Source of the DNA: an uncultured Gammaproteobacteria bacterium
GTDB taxonomy: Bacteria > Pseudomonadota > Gammaproteobacteria > CAMYKB01
Assembly: GCA_947258875.1 (NCBI GenBank)
Contig: CAMYKB010000014.1
Location: forward strand, 1-40,531
Direction: 5' to 3'
DNA: 40,531 nucleotides
Below are positions 21,900 through 30,037 of this stretch, piece by piece (the stretch's first letter is position 1; each line of letters begins with the position of its first letter). Under the pieces are notes generated by a model. The model was given only the letters and a program-made list of their open reading frames with translations. It had not been told where the DNA came from and did no database searches. Position numbers and translations under genes: made by a program.

Positions 21900-23066
21900 T
21901 CATGCTCCGGGTTGTGGATCGCGTGGCAGGTGCCAGGAGATGATGGTTGTCGCTATCAATACCGCAAAACCCAATATCAGTATCATTAAGGTGGGATCAA
22001 CGTCGCGTGTGCTCGCCAGGGTGTAGAGCCCCACTGCAAACAACATTGCCAGGTTCTCAAAAAAATGTTGTATCGCCACCGCTCCGCCGCTACCAATAGT
22101 GTCATGCCCTACTTTTTGCAAGGCCGCATTGATAGGCACTACGAATAATCCACCGGCACAACCGATAATGAAGAGGACTATGCGCGCTGCCCACACATCC
22201 TGGACACCGCCTAGCAGGATAATAAAGATGCCCATCAGATAGGCTGCCAGGCGTGCGCGGCGCAGGTACTCCATGGGGATCAGTTTGGGCACCAGCGCCG
22301 CACCGGCGACAATGCCGATCGCGAGAAATAGTGTAAGTTCGGATATTTCTGTCGCATTGTTTAACATCAATACGATAGGTGCCCAGGCGATCAATATTAC
22401 ACGCAACACAGCTGCGACCCCCCAGAAGATACTGGCGCCCAACATCGAGAATCGCACCCGTGCGGTAGCAAAAAAACCTCGCGTCATACGCACAAAGGCG
22501 GGTAATGCAGCAACCTTACTCGCGCCCCGCGGTGGCAATTTGGGTATTAGTAGGGTGATGGCTGATGAAATGATGAATAATCCAACCACCATCACCAATG
22601 CAAGACTGGTACTGTAATCAGCCAGCCGCGCGCCAATGACGGTACCGGTAACGATGGCAACAATAGTCGAACTCTCAATCCAGCTATTGGCGCGCACCAA
22701 TTCTCTGGAATCCACGAGTTCCGGAAGGATCCCATACTTGGCGGGACTGTAAACCGCAGCACCCACACCGATGACGGCATAGGCCAGCAGGGGTTCGATA
22801 CCAAAGAGTATAGCAACCGCACCCAATGCCTTGATGAGGTTGCCAGTGATCAATACTCTGGGTTTGGAATGTTTATCCGCAAACACTCCCACCCACGGCG
22901 CCAGCACCACAAACGCCAACAGGAAAACACTCTGTAGTGCAGGCACATACCACTGCGGCGGCTCACTGAGTTTGAGTATCATCGCAATGGCGGTAAACAG
23001 AATCGCGTTATCGGCGAAGGCCGTCAGAAACTGGGCTATCAATAGCGGGTAAACACCACGATTCAT
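21900..23066 (-). CDS. lplT: Lysophospholipid transporter LplT
   Basis: Major-facilitator transporter that flips lysophospholipids (mainly lyso-PE) from the outer to the inner leaflet of the inner membrane for reacylation by Aas. The 388-residue protein has about 12 hydrophobic segments. The N-terminus YPLLIAQFLTAFADNAILFTA and the loop FADKHSKPRVLITGNLIKALG are typical of LplT. Its ATG overlaps the aas stop codon by four bases (ATGA), the conserved aas-lplT coupling. Identity rests on family features plus this neighbour. Confidence 0.93.
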   Translation of the reverse strand: MNRGVYPLLIAQFLTAFADNAILFTAIAMILKLSEPPQWYVPALQSVFLLAFVVLAPWVGVFADKHSKPRVLITGNLIKALGAVAILFGIEPLLAYAVIGVGAAVYSPAKYGILPELVDSRELVRANSWIESSTIVAIVTGTVIGARLADYSTSLALVMVVGLFIISSAITLLIPKLPPRGASKVAALPAFVRMTRGFFATARVRFSMLGASIFWGVAAVLRVILIAWAPIVLMLNNATEISELTLFLAIGIVAGAALVPKLIPMEYLRRARLAAYLMGIFIILLGGVQDVWAARIVLFIIGCAGGLFVVPINAALQKVGHDTIGSGGAVAIQHFFENLAMLFAVGLYTLASTRDVDPTLMILILGFAVLIATTIISWHLPRDPQPGA

Positions 23067-25231
23067 ACTTGCTGCCCCTCCGTGGCCAATGTTTCGAGCG
23101 CTTTGTAGTCGATCTTGCCGGTTCCCAGAACCGGTAATTTCTTGACCACCAGCAGTTTACGCGGGACGTTGATCTCACCGATGCCTTCATCGCGCGCAAA
23201 CTTCAACAACTCGCTGCGATGGGCCTGCTGTTTCTCGGTGACCAATACAAGTTGCTCACCCTTGTGTGCATCTGGCAGAGCCACAACAGCGTGCAATTCA
23301 TCTGGCCACAGGCGGCAAGCCAATTCTTCAACCGCGGTAAGCGACACCATCTCACCACCTACCTTGGCAAAACGCTTGGCGCGCCCCTGGATATAGACAA
23401 ATCCACCCTCATCGAGCTTCACTATGTCACCCGTATCGTAACTGGGGACGCCATCTTCGAGCTGCGGCGGTACTAGCACAGCAGGATTGTCAGCCAGCAG
23501 ATACCCCAACATGATGTTTGGCCCCTGCACATGTAAACGCCCCCCCTCTTCGACACCCGGGACCGGTTCAAGCCGGTACTTTATGCCAGGCAGGAAGCGT
23601 CCTACCGAACCCGGTTGATTCGCCATGGGTGTATTGGTGGTCAAAGCCGGACTGGTTTCGGTTGCTCCATAGCCCTCGAAGATACGCACGCCATAGCGAT
23701 CTGACCAGGTACGTCGTGTCTGCTCTTGTAATTTTTCTGCTCCGGCGAACACATAGCGTACGCTGTAGAAATCGTAAGGATGTGCAAAGCGCGCGTAGCC
23801 GGACAAAAAGGTATTGGTACCAAACAGTATGGTGGCATTAATATCATAGGCCATTTCCGGCACGATACGGTAATGCAGTGGCGAAGGATAAAAGAAGGTG
23901 TATACACCCGAGATCAAGGGCAATAAAGTACCCCCTGTCAGACCGAATGAATGAAATATCGGCAAAGCATTCAGCACTCTGTCCTGTGCTGTAAAATCTA
24001 CACGTGCGGCCAGTTGCTGGCGATTCGCCATTAGATTGGTGTGCGATAAGACCACGCCCTTGGGCGCCCCTTCTGAACCCGATGTGAACAACACCACTGC
24101 CGGGCTATCAGGATCAACCTTGCCGGCATAGCGATAGTAGGACAAGTCCGCAAATCGCATCGATAGCCATGCCAACAGCTTTGCAAAAACCGTGATCTCA
24201 GCGACGAGATCTTCTAGGTATAACAGGGTTGTTGTTGTCTGCAGTTGCGTGGCCACATCCTGAAGTTTCGCCATTTCAATAAAGCGGCGCGAAGTGATGA
24301 CGGTATTAATCTGTGCTGTCTTACATGCCGACAGCATGCCATGCGCGCCAACTGTGTAGTTGAGCATAGCCGGCACCCTGCCAAATGCCTGCAGCCCCAT
24401 AAATGCGATCACTGTACCGGTCATATTCGGTAGTAACACAGCTACATATTCACCCTCACGAGTATGCCCGGCAAAGGCACGACCAAGTGCATAGGCACCC
24501 GTGACTACACGATCATAGTTCAATGCCTTGCGTTGCACATCTTCCAGAATAACGTGACGTCCACCATGTATCTGCCGCGCATCCAACAATCCCTGGAACA
24601 GGGTCTTACGGTAATCACTGGTGGCAAACATCATTTCAGTCATTAGATCTGAGAGCATGCGACCGGCTTCACGGCGACGTGCGCGACCACGAAATTCAGA
24701 ACCTGGTTCAAGCCGTACGGGCGACAATACCGTCAGTGTGATTTTCGGGAACCAGCGTATGCGCACGCGCCCACGCAATCGAGAAAAGGGCGTGTACTGG
24801 GCGCCATCGATGCGTACCGGTAAAATCATGGCACCTGATTTATCAGCCACCAGACCAGTACCGTCATAGATTTTCATGAGCGAACCGGTCACCGTGATTC
24901 TACCCTCGGGAAAGATAACGGCCTTGTTATCCTTTTGTAAGTAGCGGATCAAGGACTTGGTCGCCAAGGGATTGGCGGGGTCCATTGGGAAGCACTGCAC
25001 CAGCAGTAGAAAAGGGCGAATCCACCAACGTTGCGCCATCTGTGTATTGATGGCAAATGTCAGTTTTTGCGGAAGATATAAAGCCAATAGTACTGCATCG
25101 ATAAACGAAGTGTGATTTGCGACCACAAGCACACGATCACCCGCCTGATCAAAATGTTCCAGGCCAGAAATCTCAACCTTGTAAAGCAGCCTGAACAAGC
25201 TGCATAGCGCTCTCCTGAGCAAACCTATCAT
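23063..25231 (-). CDS. aas: Bifunctional acyltransferase / acyl-ACP synthetase Aas
   Basis: Repairs lysophospholipids: the synthetase half loads a fatty acid onto ACP and the acyltransferase half moves it to 2-acyl-glycerophosphoethanolamine at the inner membrane. The 722-residue protein is a fusion, as in E. coli (719). The PlsC-type domain has NHTSFID (His40, Asp45) and FPEGRITVTGS. The AMP-binding domain has VVLFTSGSEGAPKGV near residue 380, GYGATETSPALT, and the YDTGDI and GKIDYKAL motifs near the C-terminus. It lies 39 bases after a tetR gene and overlaps lplT, suggesting a tetR-aas-lplT operon controlled by that repressor. Confidence 0.95.
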   Translation of the reverse strand: MIGLLRRALCSLFRLLYKVEISGLEHFDQAGDRVLVVANHTSFIDAVLLALYLPQKLTFAINTQMAQRWWIRPFLLLVQCFPMDPANPLATKSLIRYLQKDNKAVIFPEGRITVTGSLMKIYDGTGLVADKSGAMILPVRIDGAQYTPFSRLRGRVRIRWFPKITLTVLSPVRLEPGSEFRGRARRREAGRMLSDLMTEMMFATSDYRKTLFQGLLDARQIHGGRHVILEDVQRKALNYDRVVTGAYALGRAFAGHTREGEYVAVLLPNMTGTVIAFMGLQAFGRVPAMLNYTVGAHGMLSACKTAQINTVITSRRFIEMAKLQDVATQLQTTTTLLYLEDLVAEITVFAKLLAWLSMRFADLSYYRYAGKVDPDSPAVVLFTSGSEGAPKGVVLSHTNLMANRQQLAARVDFTAQDRVLNALPIFHSFGLTGGTLLPLISGVYTFFYPSPLHYRIVPEMAYDINATILFGTNTFLSGYARFAHPYDFYSVRYVFAGAEKLQEQTRRTWSDRYGVRIFEGYGATETSPALTTNTPMANQPGSVGRFLPGIKYRLEPVPGVEEGGRLHVQGPNIMLGYLLADNPAVLVPPQLEDGVPSYDTGDIVKLDEGGFVYIQGRAKRFAKVGGEMVSLTAVEELACRLWPDELHAVVALPDAHKGEQLVLVTEKQQAHRSELLKFARDEGIGEINVPRKLLVVKKLPVLGTGKIDYKALETLATEGQQV

Positions 25232-26059: not shown

Positions 26060-28138
26060 ATGAGCATTTTCAGAAGGTTGGTCCACGCCCTTTCGGCATT
26101 ATTATTATTTATGGTCGGTACTCAGGCCCTGGCTGCGGGTCTGCTGACCCCTACTGATGGCAGCCTTCCCGCTCTGGATATCCGTGAGCATCAGGTCAAT
26201 GTCATCATTGAAGACGGTTATGCCATCACCCGGGTGGACCAGGTTTTCCACAACCCGCATCAGCGAGATCTGGAAGCGGTTTACTCTTTCCCGGTACCCG
26301 AGAAAGGCGCAGTTTCAGAGTTCACGATGTGGATCGATGACAAACCGGTACACGGTGAGGTATTGGAAAAGCAGCAGGCCAGGCAAATCTATGAGGAAGA
26401 AAAGGCCGCAGGACGTGAAACCGGACTGACAGAGAAAGACAGCTATAAGACCTTCGACATCAGTGTGAGCCCGGTGCGTGCAGGCCAGAATACCCGTATT
26501 CGTCTGGTATACCTGCAACCCACCCATATCGACACCGGTATCGGTCGTTACGTTTACCCACTTGAAGAAGGTAATGTCGACGAACAGAAACTGGCCTTCT
26601 GGACAGCCAGTGAGAGCGTGAAAGAGAAATTCAGTTTCGATCTGAAATTACGTTCGGGTTATCCAGTTGATGCCCTGCGCGCGCCCAACTCACCACAGGC
26701 TCTCATCAATCAACAGGACGACCAGCAGTGGCAAATGTCATTAAATAGGCAGGGAAATATAGCTAGCACACAAAATGATGCCGAAGGCGGCGCCACATCG
26801 ACACCCATCAGCACCCAGACTTCTGCTTATACCCTCGATCAGGATATCGTGGTGTACTGGCGTCATGCAGCTAACCTACCCGGATCGGTGGATCTTGTTA
26901 CTTACAAACCGGATGCAGCAAAGCGTGGCACATTCATGCTCAGCATCACGCCGGGTGATGACCTGAAGCCAATTGTCGAAGGGCGCGACTGGGCTTTCGT
27001 ACTGGATTTATCCGGTTCTATGAACGGCGGCAAGTACAGCTCGCTTGCGGATGGTGTACAACGCGCGCTCAAGGCAATGTCACCACAAGACCGCTTCAGG
27101 ATTGTCACTTTCAACAGTAATGCCAGGGAACTTACCTCAGGTTTCACGGCTGCGACGCCAGAAAATATTGCCCATTACAGCCAGTTGGTTGCCTCACAGC
27201 AACCGAATCAAAGCACCAATCTTTACGCAGGCTTAAAACAAGGGCTTGGTTCACTGGATGCTGACAGGACTACGAGTATCGTGCTGGTTACCGATGGAGT
27301 TGCTAATGTTGGTGTCACTAAACAGAAACAGTTCTTGGACTTGATACGTAAAAAGGATGTGCGTTTGTTTACGTTCATTATGGGTAACAGTGCAAACCGT
27401 CCGCTATTGGAAGCTATAACCAAGGCATCCGGCGGGTTTTCGGCAAGCATTTCCAACAGTGATGACATTGTCGGACAATTACTGCTGGCTGCCAGCAAGG
27501 TCAGCCACGAAACACTGCATGGCGTCAAAATAGACATCAGTGGTATTAAAACCTCTGATCTTACGCCACAAACTATCGGCAACATTTATAGAGGGCAACA
27601 AATAATAGTCCTGGGTCATTATACGGGAGACGGTAATGCCAGAGTACATATCAAAGCTAAGGTTTCCGGCGAGGATAAGGAATACACCACAGCCTTTAAT
27701 TTTCCCGCACAAACCAACCTCAACCCAGAACTGGAACGGCTCTGGGCATATGCCAGCGTTGACGGCATGATGCAAACGATGAATGACTTTGGAGAAGAGG
27801 CAGACCTCAAACAAGCCGTCAAAGACCTGGCGTTGGAATACAGTCTGGTAACTGACTATACCTCCATGCTCGTAGTGAGGGATGAAGTATTCACAGCACG
27901 TGGTATTGAGCGCCGCAATCAGCAGCGACTGGCCACAGAACAAACGGCCCAACAGCAACGCGCACAGAGTCCGGTACAGTCGCGCAGGGTTGACACACAA
28001 CAACCGATGTACCAGACACAGCGCGCAGATACCCGCAAACCCTCAGGCTCAGGATTTAGCGGCGGCGGTGCTTTCGATACTTGGATGCTGATGTTACTTG
28101 CCCCCGCACTACTATTCAGATGGACAAGACGTCAATAA
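26060..28138 (+). CDS. VIT and von Willebrand A domain surface protein with GlyGly-CTERM-like tail
   Basis: Exported protein of 692 residues. A signal peptide ends near TQALA (residue 25). The vault/inter-alpha-trypsin (VIT) domain follows (about 30-160, with VEAVYSFPVPEKGAVSEF-like sequence at 71-88). A von Willebrand factor A domain (about 308-480) has a complete metal-ion site DLSGS (Asp316, Ser318, Ser320). The C-terminus is a Gln/Arg-rich linker, then SGSGFSGGGAFDTWMLMLL and a basic end: a GlyGly-CTERM-type sorting tail. Relatives with the same VIT-vWA layout are known as marine proteobacterial sortase targets, but no LPxTG motif is present here. The gene is divergent from tetR and ends with a clear terminator. 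Probable role: adhesion or protein binding at the cell surface. Confidence 0.85.
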   Translation: MSIFRRLVHALSALLLFMVGTQALAAGLLTPTDGSLPALDIREHQVNVIIEDGYAITRVDQVFHNPHQRDLEAVYSFPVPEKGAVSEFTMWIDDKPVHGEVLEKQQARQIYEEEKAAGRETGLTEKDSYKTFDISVSPVRAGQNTRIRLVYLQPTHIDTGIGRYVYPLEEGNVDEQKLAFWTASESVKEKFSFDLKLRSGYPVDALRAPNSPQALINQQDDQQWQMSLNRQGNIASTQNDAEGGATSTPISTQTSAYTLDQDIVVYWRHAANLPGSVDLVTYKPDAAKRGTFMLSITPGDDLKPIVEGRDWAFVLDLSGSMNGGKYSSLADGVQRALKAMSPQDRFRIVTFNSNARELTSGFTAATPENIAHYSQLVASQQPNQSTNLYAGLKQGLGSLDADRTTSIVLVTDGVANVGVTKQKQFLDLIRKKDVRLFTFIMGNSANRPLLEAITKASGGFSASISNSDDIVGQLLLAASKVSHETLHGVKIDISGIKTSDLTPQTIGNIYRGQQIIVLGHYTGDGNARVHIKAKVSGEDKEYTTAFNFPAQTNLNPELERLWAYASVDGMMQTMNDFGEEADLKQAVKDLALEYSLVTDYTSMLVVRDEVFTARGIERRNQQRLATEQTAQQQRAQSPVQSRRVDTQQPMYQTQRADTRKPSGSGFSGGGAFDTWMLMLLAPALLFRWTRRQ

Positions 28139-28159
28139 TAGAACACACACCTGAAGATC

Positions 28160-28192
28160 CGCCGTGGCATTAGTAGTTGTCACGGCGTTTTT
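28160..28192 (+). terminator. Intrinsic terminator after the VIT-protein gene
   Basis: CGCCGTG (28160-28166) pairs with CACGGCG (28181-28187), followed by five T residues (28188-28192), 22 bases after the stop codon. Confidence 0.8.
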
Positions 28193-28211
28193 ATCCAATA
28201 TTTACGCCACA

Positions 28212-28302
28212 TAAAAAAAAACGGCTACTGCAGACGCAGTAGCCGTAAAAACTACGGAGGAGCAATGTAAACACTCTTACAATGCAGCACTTATACTACA
28301 CC
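28212..28302 (-). ncRNA. Candidate small RNA gene, unit 1 of a tandem pair
   Basis: Read on the minus strand, this unit ends in an 11-base-pair stem with a 4-base loop (28221-28246) followed by a run of nine T: a textbook intrinsic terminator. Just before it is the segment ACATTGCTCCTCCGTAGTT, unpaired in simple folds, which is the exact complement of GGAGG, a 4-base spacer and ATG. Upstream, TGACAG and TGTAGT lie 18 bases apart as a weak promoter-like pair. A homologous unit sits exactly 200 bases away. I infer a transcript of about 80 bases that could base-pair with ribosome-binding sites. No family is recognised; a duplicated terminator is the alternative. Confidence 0.55.
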
Positions 28303-28412
28303 TTGTTCGAGCTATTAACTGTCATAAACTGTGTAATCATCGTTTATGTAACACTGTTTTACAACACACGGTATATACAAGCATTCAGTTCTTGGGCGAT
28401 TTATCAATGACG

Positions 28413-28501
28413 CAAAAAAAACGGCTATTGCAGGTGCAACAGCCGTAATAACTACGGAGGCGCAATGTAGGTTTCATACACTGCAGTACATACATTACAC
28501 C
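28413..28501 (-). ncRNA. Candidate small RNA gene, unit 2 of a tandem pair
   Basis: Homologous to unit 1. The terminator stem (28421-28446) keeps ten of eleven pairs, with one C-G pair changed to T-A and one A/C mismatch, and is followed by eight T on the minus strand. The segment ACATTGCGCCTCCGTAGTT differs from unit 1 by a single base. Upstream, TTACAG and TGTAAT are again 18 bases apart, and ACAGTTTNTNACAGT is shared beyond that. As it is the first hairpin after der, it may also terminate the der transcript. Confidence 0.55.
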
Positions 28502-28590
28502 TGAAATGATAGACCGACTGTAACAAACTGTTACATTACATAACCTGTGACATTAGTTTACAAAGTCTGTGCCCGTCATCATAACAACCC

Positions 28591-29988
28591 TCATCTGCGC
28601 TTCTTGATATGCTTCATCAGGCGCTGGCGTTTATGTTCCTGGCGTGGTGTCAATGGATTTCGCTTTCCTGCATAGGGGTTATCTGCAGTCTTCAACTCGA
28701 TCCTTACAGGCGCTCCCGTCAGCTTCAGCGCCTTCTGATAGTAATTCATCAGATAGCGTTTATATGAAAGTGGCAGACGTTCAGTCTGATTCCCATGAAT
28801 GATGATGCGGAACGGGTTATTACCGCCCTGATGCGCATAACGGAGTTTGATCCGACGGCCATGCACCAACGGGGGCTGATGGTCGGCAACAGCCTGCTCT
28901 AACAAACGGCTCAGCTCAGGCGTAGGAGCCTTTAACATTGCAGAACGATAGGCACGCTTAACGGCATTCATCAAATGCCCCACACCTGTGCCGTGTAACG
29001 CCGAAATCATATGTTGCTCGGCAAAATTGATAAACGATAACCTGAGATCGAGTTCACGACGTATTCGTGTCCTGTCATCATCTCTTAGGCCATCCCATTT
29101 ATTGACTGCAATGACAAGTGCACGCCCGGATTCCAGAATCATACCCAGCAATGTGGCGTCCTGTTCGGCAATACCCTGTTGTGCATCCAGTACCAGGATA
29201 ACCACATCGCATGATTCTATTGCCTGCAGTGTTTTCACGATACTGAACTTTTCGATCGCCTGTGATACGCGACTGCGCCTGCGCACACCGGCTGTATCAA
29301 TTAAGGTGTAATTCTGGCCATTACGCTGGAACGGTACCGATATACTATCGCGTGTAGTGCCAGGCATATCAAAGGTCACCAGGCGCTCTTCACCGAGTAA
29401 GCGATTAATGAGTGTTGATTTGCCGACGTTAGGGCGGCCGATAAACGCAATACGGATACCCTGCTCCAGTCTCTCCTCTATAGAAATAGCAGGTTGTAGT
29501 GGCAGCAGATTGCATAAGACCTGCATCATGGCCTTGATACCACGCCCGTGCGCGGCGGCGATTGCGAAGGTCTGTGCGATTCCAAGCCGGTAAAAGTCGG
29601 CGCTCGCCTGATCAGGGTCCATTCCATCGGTTTTATTAATGGCCATAACCAATGGCTTGTTATACGCACGCAGTTCCCTGGCAAGCAATTCATCTGCGGC
29701 GGTGAGGCCATCACGGCCATCAACAATCAACAAGATCAGGTCGGCTTCTTCAATCGCCAGCTTTGTTTGCCCTTCCATAAGCCGATCGATGGATTCCTGT
29801 TCACCACCAATGCCACCGGTATCAATAACCAGATAATCACGATCGCCCACCTTGCCATCACCGTATTTGCGATCACGGGTCAGACCTGGAAAATCCGCAA
29901 CCAAAGCATCACGCGTACGCGTCAGCTGGTTAAAAAGAGTCGACTTGCCAACATTAGGACGGCCGACGAGTGCGATGACAGGTTTCAT
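28591..29988 (-). CDS. der: Ribosome-biogenesis GTPase Der (EngA)
   Basis: Essential double-GTPase needed for maturation of the 50S ribosomal subunit. The 465-residue protein has two tandem G domains, each starting GRPNVGKST (about residues 8-16 and 180-188), with guanine-specificity motifs NKTDG and NKWDG, followed by a C-terminal KH-like domain and a basic tail (HIKKRR). The sequence before ATG 29988 lacks a Shine-Dalgarno. Instead the mRNA would read TCACCTCCTTATG, which copies the 3' end of 16S rRNA. It is the last gene of the long minus-strand block, 49 bases after bamB; the hairpins at 28413 and 28212 follow it. Confidence 0.97.
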   Translation of the reverse strand: MKPVIALVGRPNVGKSTLFNQLTRTRDALVADFPGLTRDRKYGDGKVGDRDYLVIDTGGIGGEQESIDRLMEGQTKLAIEEADLILLIVDGRDGLTAADELLARELRAYNKPLVMAINKTDGMDPDQASADFYRLGIAQTFAIAAAHGRGIKAMMQVLCNLLPLQPAISIEERLEQGIRIAFIGRPNVGKSTLINRLLGEERLVTFDMPGTTRDSISVPFQRNGQNYTLIDTAGVRRRSRVSQAIEKFSIVKTLQAIESCDVVILVLDAQQGIAEQDATLLGMILESGRALVIAVNKWDGLRDDDRTRIRRELDLRLSFINFAEQHMISALHGTGVGHLMNAVKRAYRSAMLKAPTPELSRLLEQAVADHQPPLVHGRRIKLRYAHQGGNNPFRIIIHGNQTERLPLSYKRYLMNYYQKALKLTGAPVRIELKTADNPYAGKRNPLTPRQEHKRQRLMKHIKKRR

Positions 29989-30037
29989 AAGGAGGTGACT
30001 CTAGGGGAATAATCTTACTGCCACAGAACAAGCAACA

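Follow-up and report, generated by a model that had tools for sequence, protein, structure and literature searches.

Two tandem units downstream of der as putative sibling small RNA genes with a predicted unpaired anti-Shine-Dalgarno seed in an uncultured gammaproteobacterium

What does a pair of closely similar units, each ending in a terminator of its own, do in the space between two convergent protein genes? The question is raised by a locus in a stretch of 40,531 nucleotides from an uncultured Gammaproteobacteria bacterium; this stretch (hereafter the window) makes up contig C14 in a 67-contig genome of 3.01 Mb. The units lie on the minus strand at 28213-28301 (unit 1) and 28413-28500 (unit 2). 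A first-pass annotation, made from the DNA letters alone, had read them as duplicated trans-acting RNAs that block translation start sites. Our follow-up leads to a narrower form of that answer, which we regard as reasonably probable: the units encode sibling trans-acting small RNAs (sRNAs), built much like the csRNAs of Streptococcus, that block the ribosome-binding sites (RBSs) of selected mRNAs, and a gene of the AsmA family (asmA) is the best candidate target.

The tandem duplication itself is plain. Unit 1 and unit 2 match in blastn with E 8e-16 and 80% identity over 90 bases, and their terminator stems begin at 28221 and 28421, exactly 200 bases apart, as the first-pass annotation had described. 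Core and terminator align without gaps, and the alignment score of each of these two parts was reached by none of 1000 dinucleotide shuffles. The core, TACATTGC[T/G]CCTCCGTAGTT[T/A]TT, is 23 nt long and identical at 21 positions, in agreement with the near-identical segment reported earlier; it reads TACATTGCTCCTCCGTAGTTTTT at 28247..28269 in unit 1 (CCTCC at 28256-28260) and TACATTGCGCCTCCGTAGTTATT at 28447..28469 in unit 2 (CCTCC at 28456-28460), both on the minus strand. The intrinsic terminators on the same strand (28221..28246 and 28421..28446) have an 11-bp stem, a loop of 4 bases and a T run, 9 long in unit 1 and 8 long in unit 2, with its first base already part of the stem. Between the units the stems differ by the C-G to U-A change already noticed and by one A-U to G-U change, and pairing is kept in both; with two sequences, the shuffle control for such changes is uninformative (257/500). 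Both blastn and a covariance model of the units find these two copies only, at a single locus of the genome. The objection that the units might be copies of a dispersed terminator repeat, which had been named as a possible refutation, is therefore removed. As two homologous sRNA-like genes, each with its own terminator, the units have one of the features that define sibling sRNAs in general.

If these RNAs are made, which part of them would be free to meet a message? We infer that transcription starts 6-7 bases past a -10-like hexamer and ends in the T run, giving putative RNAs of about 75 nt (28213..28289 for unit 1 and 28413..28488 for unit 2, minus strand). Folded as assumed 77-nt (unit 1) and 76-nt (unit 2) forms, both are predicted to begin with a hairpin, continue with an unpaired stretch that includes CCUCCGUAGUU and end in the terminator. 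The earlier claim that the conserved segment is complementary to GGAGG-N4-ATG is right by sequence and holds in part for the fold: CCUCC is predicted unpaired in both short forms (66-100% per base), whereas ACAUUGC, the anti-start part, sits in the 5' hairpin with 6 of its 7 bases paired in unit 1 and all 7 in unit 2. Provided that the short forms are the true ones, the seed left open to pairing is probably CCUCCGUAGUU instead of the full anti-RBS. Start-blocking RNAs in this amended form are the best-supported reading of the locus.

What would turn the two genes on? The 18-base-spaced promoter pair of the first-pass annotation is better described as a 10-bp direct repeat with a -10-like TANNNT. 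The composite motif before both units is ACAGTTTNTNACAGT-N17-TGTA, in which ACAGTTTNTNACAGT can be read as two 10-bp steps and TGTA runs into the TANNNT. Unit 1 has the operator-like repeat ACAGTTTATGACAGT at 28318..28332 and the putative hexamer TAGTAT at 28293..28298; unit 2 has ACAGTTTGTTACAGT at 28517..28531 and TAATGT at 28492..28497, all on the minus strand, with the same offset in unit 1, unit 2 and before the asmA gene. Genome-wide, the composite motif has three perfect sites: the two units and C22:124288, where a third exact copy of the repeat stands at an identical spacing to TGTA. None further appears until three mismatches; at that level there are 7 sites, and the reversed pattern has 12 with three or fewer mismatches (control level). 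A simple estimate puts the expected number of exact copies of the first motif part at about 0.09 for a genome of this size, to be multiplied by about 1/256 for TGTA at that place. The promoter part gains support because of this third perfect copy elsewhere in the genome, its one source of support; a plain sigma-70 scan gave 2 promoter-like sites vs 1.5 expected (chance level), one before unit 2 and none before unit 1. Judged from known examples, the repeat may be a response-regulator site. A one-mismatch copy of the repeat, lacking the TGTA spacing, lies at C5:18165 (L177 ~1501), just within the start of a gene that, from its open reading frame (ORF), resembles glgB, divergent from a presumed glgC-like gene.

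Which message could be the target? The third motif site stands in a divergent intergenic region, is directed at the AsmA-family gene (PF05170, E 3e-71) and ends 126 bases before its start; its -10-like hexamer is TAACAT. The gene was singled out via this motif before its start was compared with the seed. Its start sequence is ACACTACGGAGACGCTTAATG, and its RBS holds ACTACGGAG, 9 nt that are perfectly complementary to CCUCCGUAGUU, the seed predicted to be unpaired. By perfect-match length asmA ranks 2nd of 1107 called starts; the calls are crude (hexamer score plus Shine-Dalgarno), cover 40.7% of the genome, and many may be wrong. A seed match at about the 0.2% level by match length and the 2% level by energy is suggestive. 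The longest complement among the 1107 starts is in the leader of an MMPL-family transporter gene (L231:8009-10294, contig C8), where 12 nt, AAAAACTACGGA, match the unit 1 seed; by seed energy this start ranks 2/1107 for unit 1 and 40th for unit 2. In duplexes with the unit 2 core, the lowest energy (-28.7 kcal/mol) is that of a DsrE/DsrF-family gene on contig C1 (L179:12155-12562), presumably TusC-like, whose match extends by sequence into the sRNA part predicted to be paired.

How could these parts work together? We propose that a tandem duplication in the gap separating der from a VIT/VWA-domain protein gene produced two sibling sRNA genes, and that each would be transcribed from its own promoter, probably induced by an activator (at a guess an OmpR/PhoB-type response regulator) that binds the 10-bp direct repeat across the -35 region. 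Each RNA of about 75 nt would carry the anti-Shine-Dalgarno seed CCUCCGUAGUU between its 5' hairpin and its terminator, the U tail of which could bind Hfq, and an Hfq gene is present in the genome. The seed would base-pair where a Shine-Dalgarno region reads (A)ACUACGGAGG and so exclude ribosomes from a limited message set, with the asmA message, under the same promoter motif, as best candidate. Activator, sRNAs and asmA would then make an incoherent feed-forward loop. The full version of this proposal is a lineage-specific sRNA pair that has its activator-type promoter in common with asmA alone and blocks the asmA RBS, so that a self-contained three-promoter incoherent feed-forward loop, built independently of known sRNA families, controls an AsmA-type envelope protein; we offer it tentatively and consider it rather doubtful. 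RBS masking by an exposed sRNA sequence is a known route of bacterial gene control, and of the genomes searched a single one yielded this RNA. If true, the reading would give the csRNA design, with its sibling copies, its response-regulator-type promoter and its unpaired anti-Shine-Dalgarno seed, a counterpart in the gammaproteobacteria and would suggest that this design arises repeatedly. It also yields a specific prediction, namely that AsmA is under joint transcriptional and sRNA control.

Several observations weigh against an sRNA pair of this kind. The predicted fold varies with the assumed 5' end: in the 89-nt form of unit 1, CCUCC forms the loop of a hairpin and part of GUAGU pairs, and in that of unit 2 the leading CC of CCUCC is paired. 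A longer RNA would also follow from an alternative promoter-like pair before unit 2, GTAACA-17-TATCAT, whose TATCAT lies at 28506-28511 on the minus strand (promoter scan). Local alignment of the two promoter parts alone shows no significant similarity (98/1000 shuffles were as good), the repeat with one mismatch allowed has 4 sites genome-wide vs 4 for the reversed control, and TGTA was joined to the motif only after the third site had been seen. By seed duplex energy asmA falls to rank 8 with unit 1, rank 17 with unit 2 and 21/1107 by the better of the two, and by co-folding to ranks 20 and 18 and to 26/1107 overall; the stretches used for ranking were selected by the author, the asmA contig among them. 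The target prediction suggested by the first-pass annotation brought out no global excess of core complements at called starts (8/1107 with at least 9 perfect matches vs 8.1 expected). Duplex energies are mildly stronger than those of shuffled cores that keep CCUCC, whose minimum was as low in 3/60 cases for unit 1 and 9/60 for unit 2. The anti-RBS pattern with up to three mismatches occurs at 42 sites genome-wide, both units included, vs 58 for the reversed control. With no genome- or sample-wide excess of complementary starts, a broad action against all RBSs is therefore unsupported. Finally, no homologue was found in any set searched.

Could the units be explained without a regulatory RNA? 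They might simply be two tandem intrinsic terminators, duplicated as a fail-safe end of the der operon. A terminator scan found no terminator-like site between der and unit 2, so the unit 2 terminator is the first that der transcripts would meet. Yet conservation of the 23-nt core, which lies outside the stem, equals that of the stem itself, and a terminator needs no second unit with its own operator-like motif common to another gene's upstream region; we consider this explanation unlikely. The same gap, with unit 2 about 100 bp downstream of der on the same strand, would suit an RNA cut by RNase from the 3' end of the der mRNA (unit 1 by read-through), without a promoter of its own and with target blocking as proposed above. 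Unit 1 stands behind the unit 2 terminator, however, and the upstream motif is present at both units, which makes processing slightly less likely still. Least probable of all is an element on the plus strand, where both cores (28252-28270 and 28452-28470) read as an RBS in the form GGAGG-N4-ATG with an immediate stop (ATG-TAA, ATG-TAG) and might belong to a leader or to a gene for a small peptide. Both T runs, however, are oriented for minus-strand transcription, the terminator-like site on the plus strand comes earlier, just after the VIT/VWA gene, and no ORF of at least 40 codons begins there.

A diverged pair of iron-sparing sRNAs of the RyhB/PrrF type would still be regulatory, and it has a tandem precedent in PrrF1/PrrF2 of P. 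aeruginosa (PMC4211561). The units have an ACAUUGC core and a terminator in common with RyhB; the unit 1 core aligns with the RyhB core (ACAUUGCU..UCC.GUA.UU; 19.6 bits, E 0.3), and the shuffle p values of its cores, before any correction for the number of families compared, are 0.003 (unit 1) and 0.004 (unit 2). Those 19.6 bits compare with an RF00057 gathering score of 55, and a whole-genome RF00057 search, in which 150 of 995 first-look candidates were scored, misses the units. A whole-genome search with RF00444 (gathering score 90 bits) had no match at the units and three weak ones elsewhere; one PrrF match on C23 (29.2 bits) was set aside as mainly the terminator of a coding gene. The best Fur-box-like sequence agrees at 12/19 positions with a Fur-box consensus, which 54% of shuffles equal (chance level). 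Such a pair is improbable, more so than terminators or processing. sRNA genes as proposed here are favoured because the similarity of core and terminator exceeds that of shuffles, stem pairing is kept, an Hfq gene is present, the copies form a single locus, the motif is shared with one other site, the asmA start is complementary and CCUCC is predicted unpaired.

Which known system do the units resemble? By architecture the csRNAs come closest, of which Streptococcus has several similar, CiaR-dependent ones, two of them tandem in S. pneumoniae; their promoters have a direct repeat and a spaced -10 region, and a conserved unpaired anti-Shine-Dalgarno stretch lies between two stem-loops (PMC3091779, PMC4507080, PMC4211561). 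The units share the sibling copies, the direct-repeat promoter (of response-regulator type in csRNAs) and, in the predicted 77/76-nt folds although not fully in the 89-nt forms, the unpaired anti-Shine-Dalgarno stretch. The anti-start sequence is described as unpaired in csRNAs, whereas it is predicted paired here, and the host is a gammaproteobacterium with Hfq, unlike csRNA hosts. No CiaR box (NTTAAG-N5-TTTAAG, up to two mismatches) was found at the units within a 3141-base locus, where the sole match lies in the VIT/VWA gene at chance level (0.51 expected). Without a CiaR box and with the anti-start part predicted paired, the units are not members of the csRNAs. In organisation, OmrA/OmrB of enterobacteria come closest: the two genes stand in tandem, their RNAs of 88 and 82 nt are nearly identical in parts, EnvZ-OmpR controls them and outer-membrane proteins are their targets (PMC4211561). 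In our units, core and terminator are the best-conserved parts, and OmrA/OmrB had no match to the units, neither at gathering score nor over 28100-28600 with E values up to 10. NfeR1 (alpha-r14), like mmgR/suhB an alphaproteobacterial anti-Shine-Dalgarno sRNA, has CCUCCUCCC motifs in unpaired regions and silences a translation start; alpha-r14 has three hairpins with CCUCCUCCC, in contrast to one CCUCC per RNA here (PMC10746234).

Does the RNA have relatives? That no named family was recognised at the outset agrees with Rfam, which has no match at gathering score anywhere in the window. At E up to 10 over 28100-28600, sub-threshold matches are mmgR, RyhB, isrG and Alpha_RBS; they seem mostly terminator-driven, mmgR and RyhB also through UCCUCC and ACAUUGC, and these two were kept as comparisons only. 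The best of them, mmgR/suhB (RF00519), covers UCCUCC, UAG and the terminator and reaches 22.9 bits at unit 1 vs a gathering score of 41, with unit 2 not among the matches listed. By Rfam score mmgR and RyhB are the nearest families, far under threshold, and the units are probably genuine sRNA genes of a familiar kind with no Rfam match. The covariance model scores 116.8 and 111.9 bits on the units themselves. It was run against 369 genomes of the class, the own genome included, under the stricter filters of Infernal, which may lose weak matches; the 368 others gave five matches that reach E 0.1 (24.6-27.4 bits), with CCUCC at the core in 0/5. On 80 der loci from other genome contigs its best match was a terminator hairpin of 17.6 bits, and in the 500 bases downstream of 26 of these loci CCTCC occurred in 5/26, never as part of the core. 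The core pattern with 21 fixed bases had 0 matches in the genome-contig collection, and with 17 fixed bases 5 in viral contigs, about chance by estimate; blastn of the units found none in phages and plasmids. The operator had 4 one-mismatch sites in the 368 genomes vs 6 for the reversed control, not above chance. Literature searches returned no description of the twin RNA among the matches listed.

The surroundings of the locus can be described briefly. On the far side of the units, the VIT/VWA-domain protein gene (26060..28138, plus strand) converges on them, and behind it the terminator scan placed a terminator-like site (28160-28187, plus strand); the protein that the gene encodes was not found in viral contigs. 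About 3 kb from the units, at 23063-25231, lies a gene for an acyltransferase plus AMP-binding protein (Aas-like). In E. coli, omrA/omrB also adjoin aas, a resemblance that is probably coincidence. The gene that precedes unit 2, likewise read from the minus strand, is der (engA; 28591..29988), with Pfam domains MMR_HSR1 and KH_dom-like. The nearest der proteins have 65-66% identity among the 369 class genomes drawn, and one gammaproteobacterial metagenome-assembled genome has 64%; since the other genomes compared are related at class level, none being of the same order, this host therefore represents an isolated gammaproteobacterial lineage. Finally, ten bases, TCACCTCCTT, precede the der start in the expected Shine-Dalgarno position (29989-29998, minus strand), and we take them to resemble the anti-Shine-Dalgarno end of 16S rRNA.
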